Positions 5,082 to 8,238 of a stretch of 64,000 nt of DNA are shown here, piece after piece. The notes under the pieces were generated by a model, which saw nothing but the letters and a program-made list of their open reading frames with translations, was not told the origin of the DNA and made no database searches. Made by a program: the position numbers and the translations under genes. Position 1 is the stretch's first letter. Each line of letters opens with the position of its first letter. Origin of the DNA: a virus; IMG/VR virus record IMGVR_UViG_3300042389_000724, positions 31,390-95,389 of that record. The stretch is one strand, 5' to 3'.

Positions 5082-5110
5082 GGCGCACTTCGGTGCGCCT
5101 CTTTCTTTTT
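5082..5110 (+). terminator. Rho-independent terminator after gp32
   Basis: A seven-base-pair GC stem, GGCGCAC/GTGCGCC, closed by the stable TTCG tetraloop, is followed by TCTTTCTTTTT. It lies 30 bases after the gp32 stop and touches the stop codon of the convergent tape-measure gene at 5109. The T-rich tail is only on the plus strand, so it mainly terminates gp32 transcription. Confidence 0.93.
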
Positions 5111-7316
5111 AGAAAGAGTGTGATGCTCTTTGCATCGTTAGTATTGTTGGTTCACTGTTTCGTAGTCTCAAATCGTCATTGAAGTTGTTGGTGGTGTTGT
5201 TGATCTTGGTTTGCACAACGGAGTTGACAGATGGAGCAGCAGGCTTCGCTGTCCCCACTGCTGCTGCTTTTTCTGCATCAAGAGCATTCATCTCATTATT
5301 GTACTGCTGAACCATCTTGCCTAGCGAAGTGTTTGGCGAGGCGGGAGCAGATATTTTCCCTTCAACCACAGAGGATTGATTTTGTCCCTGCTCTCCTTGT
5401 GATGTTGATACTGTTGAAGCACTTGCAATTCCTGCTGCTGCTCCTTCTGCCGCTTTTTCATTCTTCTGTTGCTCGGCTCCCCCAACATCAATGAGCGATC
5501 CGATTCCTGGAATAGATGAAACCATGTCATAGATTTTTCTTCCACCGACCGCTTCACCCAAATACTCTGCAATATTAGATCCTACCCATTCTCCACCCAG
5601 TGTTCCTACAAGCGTTCCTATTCCTGGAATTGGAATCATTGAGCCTAGGATACCGCCACCAACAGATCCGAGAACACTTCCCAAAACTTTAACCAGTCCT
5701 ACGCCTAGTTTTTCTTTCTTTTCGTCTGGTGACATTTCGGCATCATTTTTAATGCTTGCCAAATCTATTGCGCCCATGCCAGCAGTTATCAATGCCCCTA
5801 GACCTGGTATGGATACGATAGCCTTCAGAATTTTTCCTGAACTAGACTTTACTGCACTGCCTATAGCCTTTGCTGGACTCAGATTGCTTACTGCTCCAGA
5901 AACAGAACCCCATGCACGCGACAGCCATCCCCCCGCTTTGCCAGCGGTTGATGCTATTGAAGTTCCCATTCCTTTTGTTGCGGAAGCCACAGATGAACCA
6001 ACAGTTTTTGCAGCACCAACAACTTTTCCTCCAGCCTTTCCTATCATGCCACCGATAGACTTGGCATCTCGTACAAGAGGTGTATCTTTGATCAATCCGA
6101 ATGCCTTGCTTCCGAGACTTCCTATTGCTCCAAGAGCCTTGCCGCCTAGTTTTTTAGCACCAGATAGAATACCGCGACCCGTTCCCGCTAATCCTGTTTC
6201 AGTTAGCATGGACATTAGGTTTCCTAGAATACCGCTTTCGCCGTCTTGTTTTCCGAATCCTAGTAGTTTTGCCAAACCAGAAAGAAGACCACCGCTTTTT
6301 TGTGGTTTTTCTGATGCTGGTGTTGGTTTTATTCCAAGAGACTCTAGTTCTGCTTCTCTATCAGACAGTTCTTTTGTCTGTGGTTTGAATTGCTCTACTA
6401 GAAGTTTTCTTATCTCTGATATTTCTTTGTAGATTGAACCTAGAGTTGTGTCTTCTCTTCCAGAAATTAGACCTGGTATATCTGATGCCCGAGTGCCACC
6501 CGACATCTGACGGGGAATTCGACCACCAGCATAGATGTCGATGTCTGCGTTTCTCTTTCCTCTTCGTGCAATTGATCTCTGAAGACCCCCAGAATATCTT
6601 TCTAGTTCTTCCTGTGTTTCTCTTCTTTGCTTTAGGAACTCACCTAGAATTCCTCCAACAACTGGTATCTTTGAAGCCAGTCTTTCGGGAAGAGTCTTTC
6701 GGAAAGATTGTGCTTTTTCCTTGATGAACTCTTGGAAAGATGTTCTTTTCTTCAATTGCTCTTCTACGGGCGCAACAATCTCATCTAGTTTCGCTGCGAT
6801 GTCAGATTGTTCACCCTGAGTCTTCTTTGCCAACTCTCGGATGAATTTGATTTTAGCGTAGATTCGTTTTGCTTCATCGTATGATGCGCCGATAGATTGC
6901 TCGGATAACTGCGTGGCTTCATCCATCAATTCTCTTGCAGCCGCAGCAGCAGGATCTTGTCCCAAGAATCGACTTCTGTTTTGGGATATGTAATCTTCTA
7001 CGGTGGAGCGAACACCTTTCTGCCCTTCCATCCCGACAACATATTTGTCTAGTTCAGATGTTTCAAACCCCATCTCTTTTCTTCGTATCCCTATGGATTC
7101 CAGCAGACCAATTTCTTTTGGCTGATCTGTAGTCTGTTGGGTGTTCTCTGCTGATACTACTGTGGGTGCTGCTGTGGCTGAAGCAGGACTCATTACGGAT
7201 TCAAGAGTAGCAGTGGACGCTGATTTTTCGATGGGCATAAACCGACCCATAGCGTCTCTCTTTCGAGTCGCTGCTAGTTTCTGCCGTGTTGAAAGTTTAG
7301 ACCGTCTTCTAGCCAT
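5109..7316 (-). CDS. Putative tail tape measure protein (gp29 position analogue)
   Basis: A 735-residue protein with a basic N terminus (MARRRSK), a long helical, charged part at about residues 60-250, a Gly/Ala-rich stretch with repeated GKA and GSxV pieces, and then clustered hydrophobic glycine-zipper segments at about 500-610 that could insert in a membrane. This architecture and its place directly after the gp26 chaperone-like gene with its frameshift fit a tape measure protein, which sets tail length and is ejected with DNA. T4 gp29 has about 590 residues. No direct sequence match to gp29 is claimed, and coiled coil is less extensive than in many tape measures. An AAAGGAG site lies four bases before the ATG. 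It is the last gene of the minus-strand tail block. Confidence 0.65.
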   Translation of the reverse strand: MARRRSKLSTRQKLAATRKRDAMGRFMPIEKSASTATLESVMSPASATAAPTVVSAENTQQTTDQPKEIGLLESIGIRRKEMGFETSELDKYVVGMEGQKGVRSTVEDYISQNRSRFLGQDPAAAAARELMDEATQLSEQSIGASYDEAKRIYAKIKFIRELAKKTQGEQSDIAAKLDEIVAPVEEQLKKRTSFQEFIKEKAQSFRKTLPERLASKIPVVGGILGEFLKQRRETQEELERYSGGLQRSIARRGKRNADIDIYAGGRIPRQMSGGTRASDIPGLISGREDTTLGSIYKEISEIRKLLVEQFKPQTKELSDREAELESLGIKPTPASEKPQKSGGLLSGLAKLLGFGKQDGESGILGNLMSMLTETGLAGTGRGILSGAKKLGGKALGAIGSLGSKAFGLIKDTPLVRDAKSIGGMIGKAGGKVVGAAKTVGSSVASATKGMGTSIASTAGKAGGWLSRAWGSVSGAVSNLSPAKAIGSAVKSSSGKILKAIVSIPGLGALITAGMGAIDLASIKNDAEMSPDEKKEKLGVGLVKVLGSVLGSVGGGILGSMIPIPGIGTLVGTLGGEWVGSNIAEYLGEAVGGRKIYDMVSSIPGIGSLIDVGGAEQQKNEKAAEGAAAGIASASTVSTSQGEQGQNQSSVVEGKISAPASPNTSLGKMVQQYNNEMNALDAEKAAAVGTAKPAAPSVNSVVQTKINNTTNNFNDDLRLRNSEPTILTMQRASHSF

Positions 7317-7345: not shown

Positions 7346-7534
7346 TCACAATTGCTTTTGATTGCTAACCTTGTCTTTTTCTTTTTTCAGGTGAGCAATT
7401 AGCATTTGTATGTATACCTCTCTCTCCCAAGGTATCATGCTTTCTAATTCTGCAAGAGAATAGCCGTGGTGCTGTAGAAGGCTGAAATTCAACTGGAAGA
7501 ATGCCCCCAAGTCAGTATGACAGAGGGCTATTGA
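7346..7534 (-). CDS. -1 frameshift extension of gp26 (tail assembly chaperone, GT-like)
   Basis: In the -1 frame relative to gp26 the sequence is open from the slippery T-TTT-TTT at 7540-7534 to a TGA at 7348-7346, giving 62 extra residues and a 297-residue fusion. The extension reads as real protein: LGAFFQLNF, LLQHHGYSLAELESM, IPWEREVYIQML, then a Lys/Glu-rich helix. It has no ATG before its conserved part and no ribosome site, so it is best explained as made only by frameshifting from gp26. The layout chaperone, frameshifted extension, tape measure is the classic lambda G/GT pattern. I infer this role; it was not recognised as a named family. Confidence 0.72.
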   Translation of the reverse strand, partial: SIALCHTDLGAFFQLNFSLLQHHGYSLAELESMIPWEREVYIQMLIAHLKKEKDKVSNQKQL

Positions 7535-8238
7535 AAAAAATCAGATACGCTCTTGAGTTCTACCTTTACCGCACTTCCACAAGATGGGCAATTGTAGTTG
7601 AATGAATACTTCAACTCGGGTGATGTCTGAATGAAGTCTATGAGTTTTGCAAACTGATCTGGCATCATGTTATCCACGAAGTCAGATATTTCTTTTGGAG
7701 ATATGTCTGATGCTTGATGGAGTTGATCGTTCAGCACTACCGCTTCTATGCACTTCTTTGAAAGTTCAAAAGCCATCTCTACTTCGTCTTTTGTGTAGTC
7801 AAAGTCATGGATGGATGGATACCGCATGATGAGAGATAGATTGTCGTTTATGATAACCGATGTGTCTTCCGCCTGTTCTTGTTTTTTGCCGATGGTTATT
7901 TCATCTAGTTTGATCTTGATGTTCGTTGATTTTTGGCAATTAGTGCAGGTCACTTGGGGTTTGACTTCCTCACCCACAGACTTGGATCGTATCTGTAGGA
8001 ATGCATACTCTGTGTCAGCAGCACACAACTTTCGTGTATCCAACACACCGTTTGTGCATACAGAAATGACATTTCGCATAGCGTCATTGATCTGATTTGG
8101 ATTTTTTGATTGGAGGGCGATAAGAAGTATCTTTTCTTCCTTTACGACGAACGGACGAAACTTTACTGTTTGGTTTGAAACAGGAAGCGTCATTGTATAT
8201 TGAGGAAGAGAAGCATTTTGTAAATTCAGTGTAGCCAT
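7528..8238 (-). CDS. 26: gp26-like baseplate hub/tail assembly protein with two CxxC knuckles
   Basis: A 236-residue protein of the T4 base plate protein family (gp26 type). The N-terminal half carries the typical FRPFVVKEEKILLIAL signature at residues 28-42. Cys98-x2-Cys101 and Cys217-x2-Cys220 likely form one zinc-binding site that brackets the central domain. T4 gp26 is an assembly factor of the baseplate hub; the position directly before the tape-measure gene, plus the slippery site at its last codons, suggests the related tail-chaperone role. A GATAAATA late-promoter octamer lies 25 bases upstream, overlapping the stop of the previous gene. The ribosome site GAAAGGA lies within 15 bases of the ATG. 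Confidence 0.87.
   Translation of the reverse strand: MATLNLQNASLPQYTMTLPVSNQTVKFRPFVVKEEKILLIALQSKNPNQINDAMRNVISVCTNGVLDTRKLCAADTEYAFLQIRSKSVGEEVKPQVTCTNCQKSTNIKIKLDEITIGKKQEQAEDTSVIINDNLSLIMRYPSIHDFDYTKDEVEMAFELSKKCIEAVVLNDQLHQASDISPKEISDFVDNMMPDQFAKLIDFIQTSPELKYSFNYNCPSCGSAVKVELKSVSDFFQ
7534..7540 (-). other. Slippery heptamer T-TTT-TTT for -1 ribosomal frameshifting
   Basis: Seven consecutive T bases on the coding (minus) strand sit in the phase X-XXY-YYZ relative to gp26, encoding the Phe-Phe just before its final Gln and stop. A slip of -1 avoids the TAG two codons later and opens the 62-residue extension. Confidence 0.7.

Follow-up and report, generated by a model that had tools for sequence, protein, structure and literature searches.

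Tail assembly chaperones in T4-like and other tailed phages

The abstract by Vladimirov, Gautam and Davidson is said to report conserved frameshifting in several T4-like groups and the use of genes 26 and 51 in T4. According to the papers that cite it, their 2022 study (Virology 566:9) identified the tail assembly chaperone (TAC) genes of T4-like phages (PMC10885494, PMC12846349): the PRFect paper cites it for T4-like phages in which a short gene is accompanied by a longer, fused one (PMC10885494), and the paper on Pseudomonas phage Adele cites it in connection with poly-T slippery sites in the TAC-N genes of T4-like phages (PMC12846349). In 2016, the G-T frameshift had been described as conserved in long-tailed phages "except T4", and in the lambda model the tape measure is loaded and tail-tube subunits are recruited by many copies of the short form and few of the long one (PMC5009743). 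The TAC of Vandenendeviridae and Andersonviridae, exemplified by Adele, has a -1 shift at a poly-T site into TAC-C, which is read as intergenic or hypothetical (PMC12846349).

The locus described here lies in a 64,000-nucleotide stretch (the window, positions 31390-95389) of the 95,389-base IMG/VR virus record IMGVR_UViG_3300042389_000724. Its gp26 gene and an extension in the -1 frame very probably supply this T4-like phage with its two tail assembly chaperones, a short one (TAC-N) and a long one (TAC-NC), a reading drawn from the DNA itself: frame, heptamer, selection, hairpin, homology to gp26 and gp51, and gene order. A programmed -1 frameshift from gp26 into a tail-chaperone extension before the tape measure had been proposed in the initial annotation, and is supported by conservation of the heptamer, the frame and the product and by the hairpin. 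The accompanying doubt, that such a frameshift might not be established for T4-like phages, was misplaced; per the citing papers, Vladimirov, Gautam and Davidson had described it in 2022. The frameshifted T4-like chaperone is thus known in kind, and the window locus is a new, unannotated example of it.

As far as the citing papers describe them, the T4-like chaperones of Vladimirov et al. share with the window a gp26-type TAC-N, a poly-T -1 site, a gp51-type TAC-C and a position ahead of the tape-measure gene, whereas the window differs in representing a new uncultured clade with a strong 3′ hairpin and a weak Shine-Dalgarno-like (SD-like) element. The Adele system differs in belonging to other phage families and in its motif GTTTTT (PMC12846349). 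Similarity of the window proteins to lambda gpG and gpGT was not detected in sequence or solved fold, PDB having been searched by profile with both halves and by fold with gp26; the proposed equivalence to lambda is accordingly drawn from the order of the genes, the logic of the frameshift and the literature. The lambda slippery sequence also differs from that of the window.

Genomic setting and the tape-measure candidate

The minus-strand genes around the site encode a DNA end protector (gp2), the tail tube, gp26, the extension and a 735-aa orf, with gp48/54-like, gp53 and gp5-like baseplate genes nearby; this neighbourhood is a T4-like contractile-tail module. The nearest sequences to the window are other uncultured contigs, and when the nucleotide sequence of the region was compared with phages, no close relative came up, the sole match (74%) lying outside the locus.

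The 735-aa orf (5109..7316, minus strand) starts 29 nt past the stop codon of the extension and is probably the tape-measure protein. For most of its length it shares 41% identity with the protein of locus L033, which matches several tape-measure PHROGs (to 2e-13); no direct PHROG match was found for the window protein itself. Its relatives in the clade are 595-1157 aa long and share a constant C-terminus, as expected for a tape measure. The initial annotation of this gene as a tape-measure candidate is supported by the homology to L033, by the PHROG matches of the latter and by the variable length, and it is through L033 that the chaperone genes are placed directly upstream of a tape-measure gene. 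In some cyanophages, the genes in the tape-measure position (L157:3186-5018, L158:3183-5780, L137:4150-7506) contain peptidase- or endolysin-like domains and are very variable in length.

The gp26 gene and its slippery heptamer

The first frame (7528..8238, minus strand) encodes a 236-aa gp26 that matches T4_baseplate (PF12322, E=1.8e-56) and phrog_150 (E=3.3e-56), as a TAC-N of this type should. Its AlphaFold model (pLDDT 89) resembles gp26 models from other T4-like phages, and its fold matches in BFVD are mostly T4-like gp26 proteins; neither a profile search nor Foldseek against PDB found a solved tail-chaperone structure. The protein contains two CxxC pairs (CTNC and CPSC) resembling a zinc ribbon, with weak matches to zinc-ribbon Pfam families.

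On the minus strand the gene ends in GTA TCT GAT TTT TTT CAA TAG, with GAT at 7542-7540, TTT TTT at 7539-7534, and CAA followed by the TAG stop codon at 7530-7528. The seven T bases (7540-7534) form the heptamer T_TTT_TTT (7534..7540, minus strand) in the X_XXY_YYZ phase of the zero frame that is typical of bacterial -1 frameshifting, exactly as had been read initially. A search of Rfam gave no match at the frameshift site.

The -1-frame extension

After a -1 slip, reading restarts at 7534 and continues through SIALCHTDLGAFFQLNFSLLQHHGYSLAELESMIPWEREVYIQMLIAHLKKEKDKVSNQKQL, 62 residues long, to a TGA at 7348-7346. The extension (7346..7534 with its stop codon, minus strand) therefore has exactly the 62 open codons that had been counted to 7346. 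It was initially treated as an unnamed protein, but is the C-terminal domain of T4 gp51: it matches phrog_634 (E=1.6e-23), the gp51 family named "baseplate hub assembly catalyst", and, weakly, the extreme end of phrog_150. The second frame is thus a TAC-C, which added to gp26 makes a TAC-NC. Relatives of the extension were found in 585 phage records. Its structure is predicted to be all-helical (pLDDT 88); a profile search against PDB found no solved tail-chaperone structure, and a Foldseek search against BFVD found no informative match.

The extension is in the -1 frame at all 91 distinct sites compared, and T_TTT_TT(T/C) stands in phase before the gp26 stop codon in all 97 loci, with C as the last base in 57 and T in 40, so that the alignment of relatives proposed as a check upheld both the T-run and the frame. 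Phe-Phe dipeptides elsewhere in the same loci take the heptamer form in just 8.5% of cases. The codon before the heptamer ends in T in 74/74 dereplicated loci (GAT, AAT, AGT, TCT, ACT or CAT), even though the residue that it encodes varies (D, S, N, T or H). In a gap-free alignment of 22 relatives, the -1 frame has a pN/pS of 0.22 and no stop codons, the other two frames have pN/pS of 1.5 or more with 86 and 50 stop codons, and variation is greatest at third positions. Judged by these substitution patterns, the -1 frame is under purifying selection at the protein level, and the view that the extension is protein-like is sustained both by this and by the phrog_634 match. Shuffled extension sequences are open in just 1.4% of cases; given the rarity of open shuffles, the pN/pS of 0.22 and the heptamer in 97/97 loci against a background of 8.5%, openness of the -1 frame by chance is excluded.

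The same -1 layout is found in Sinorhizobium phage phiN3, Rhizobium phage RHph_Y68 (where the heptamer is T_TTT_TTG), Caulobacter phage Cr30, Vibrio phage R11Z, Aeromonas phage Aeh1, Acidovorax phage ACP17, Pelagibacter phages HTVC008M and Mosig, and Synechococcus phage S-PM2. Ackermannviridae phages phiMAM1 and GG32 keep the -1 extension with another shift site (GTT TTC and ATT TTC); in Ackermannviridae loci L169:2453-2656 and L170:2498-2683 the context of this site is CAG GTT TTC and GAG ATT TTC, respectively, and not a T-run.

Predicted stimulatory elements

Five nucleotides after the heptamer is a 3′ hairpin of 6 + 4 bp (7503..7528, minus strand; -14.4 kcal/mol, z -3.2) with the RNA sequence GCCCUC-U-GUCA...UGAC-UU-GGGGGC. 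Across 19 clade members, no other local structure within 550 nt is as strong (-12.3, with 30-nt windows averaging -2.7). When the same protein was recoded with synonymous codons, the mean was -6.8 against -13.9 for the hairpin and none of 400 resamplings was as strong, a control computed, like that for the SD-like element below, with no correction for shared ancestry. The base pairs are kept in 93.8% of cells across the window's clade, where double-sided covariation was not found because the arms are almost invariant. The case for a 3′ stem-loop at the expected spacing of about 5-9 nt is therefore one of energy and synonymous control, not of covariation. A perfect hairpin, GCCCUC-loop-GAGGGC, occurs with identical spacing in Prochlorococcus P-HM-type phages; on average no hairpin was found in the other 49 relatives, and it is missing in most of the distant ones.

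Those 49 relatives instead have an SD-like element 8-15 nt upstream of the heptamer, which is the strongest anti-SD match of 324 positions (-5.4 against a mean of -0.7 kcal/mol). The signal owes much to a conserved Glu/Lys-Gly, to which codon choice adds (-5.4 against -4.1; 0/1000). In the window's clade the element, a 5′ stimulator of a kind common at such sites but not obligatory, is weak (-1.8 kcal/mol). In the group with no hairpin, the minimum of folding energy brackets the heptamer, from 19-25 nt before it to 10 nt after. There, the SD-like GAGGG is able to pair with a downstream coding CCCTC, which may be a by-product of coding; this pairing was set aside because a translating ribosome would have opened the structure.

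It is an evenly balanced proposal that an invariant T_TTT_TTY is combined with two partly interchangeable stimulators, an SD-like 5′ element in most relatives and a 3′ hairpin in the clade of the window, with P-HM-type phages having both, and that T4 escaped from this arrangement by way of a separate in-frame gene 51 fusion. The exchange of 5′ and 3′ stimulators may be new.

Gene 51 and alternative explanations

Tevenvirinae carry gene 51 apart from gene 26, on the opposite strand. The gp26 of T4 is homologous to the short form in the window, and the C-terminus of gp51 to the extension; in contrast to the window, gene 51 of T4 and JS98 already joins a gp26-like domain to the extension, so these phages need no frameshift. 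In JS98, gp51 has a PF12322 domain (7.5e-57) and, after it, the domain of the extension (residues 207-249); since it carries both, the long form is a hard-wired fusion in T4 and a predicted frameshift product in the relatives of the window. Gene 51 is also intact in T4 strain GT7 (KJ477686; 249 aa, L159:2216-2965, minus strand), although absent from the annotation of that record. No separate gene 51 with a gp26-like N-terminal domain of its own is present in the window, where the frame of the extension is closed immediately before the heptamer and leaves no N-terminal part.

The closure of this frame bears on the alternative of a short gp51 gene of its own, whose translation would begin at an internal ATG or TTG beyond the gp26 stop codon, either independently or by reinitiation. 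Such genes are annotated in GenBank for many cyanophages and others, among them P-HM2 (30 aa), Mosig, HTVC008M and S-PM2, and an ATG overlaps the gp26 stop codon in R11Z, Cr30, RHph_Y68 and KVP40-like phages, in which coupled reinitiation could add expression. However, conservation of the protein sets in at the heptamer, before any start codon, and homology to gp51 begins right at the frameshift even where the starts given in GenBank are internal ATGs. In the window, a -1-frame TGA (7541..7543, minus strand) directly adjoins the heptamer, as one does in 42/97 loci, so that the extension cannot be reached in its own frame from a start codon further upstream; the start codons within it are TTG at codons 9 and 15 and ATG at codon 33, and the first of these has no visible ribosome site. 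The initial observation that the conserved part lacks a start codon and ribosome site of its own therefore stands. Among the 97 loci no conserved start codon was found, the first being scattered over codons 3, 9, 10, 12, 15, 19, 20, 30, 33 and others. A separate gene would leave both the hairpin and the invariant T_TTT_TTY unexplained, and gp51 of the T4 type is fused to a gp26-like domain. On the heptamer-bound conservation and the scattered start codons, independent initiation was rejected as highly improbable.

Slippage of RNA polymerase on the T-run, in place of ribosomal slippage, is a slightly poorer explanation still. The seven Ts of the window, and of 40/97 loci, would suit it, but transcriptional slippage usually needs runs longer than T6, and 57/97 loci have just T6 followed by C. 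The ribosomal phase X_XXY_YYZ is moreover invariant, and the SD-like and hairpin elements flank the site at ribosomal spacing; transcriptional slippage was rejected on the short T6C runs and the invariant phase. An error of sequencing or assembly (to which homopolymer runs are prone) or a decayed gene has a negligible probability, refuted by the same offset in 97 distinct loci from many independent assemblies and finished phage genomes and by purifying selection on the frame.

Proposed mechanism and implications

With programmed ribosomal frameshifting as the preferred explanation, the majority of ribosomes would halt at the TAG and yield the 236-aa gp26. A minority, delayed at the heptamer by the hairpin 5 nt downstream while Phe-tRNAs occupy their P and A sites on T_TTT_TTT, would slip back one base and add the 62-residue C-terminal domain of gp51, for a predicted fusion of about 297 aa. 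By analogy with lambda G/GT, gp26 would coat the tape-measure protein encoded just downstream, and a few gp26-51 molecules would recruit tail-tube subunits. What we infer from the locus is how efficient the frameshift is, that the fusion protein exists and what it binds.

Cyanophage gp51 has been described as just ~20% of the T4 length, and gp51 as absent in Aeh1 (Sullivan et al. 2010, PMC3037559). In Aeh1, the same -1 extension follows GAT TTT TTC GAC TGA, and the "missing" gp51 is this unannotated extension of gp26 (L166:2471-2644). The frameshift would explain both the short cyanophage gp51 and its apparent absence from Aeh1 (PMC3037559), the remainder of the protein being gp26. GenBank gp51 entries as short as that of P-HM2, and the omission of gp51 in S-CAM4 and Sf-CH1b, suggest that many records carry a truncated or missing gp51.

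The locus would extend a widespread mechanism of tail-length assembly to an uncultured T4-like clade. The exchange of stimulators, if true, would be new even where the frameshift is already known, and the relatives would provide a natural series of differing stimulators at a single slippery site.
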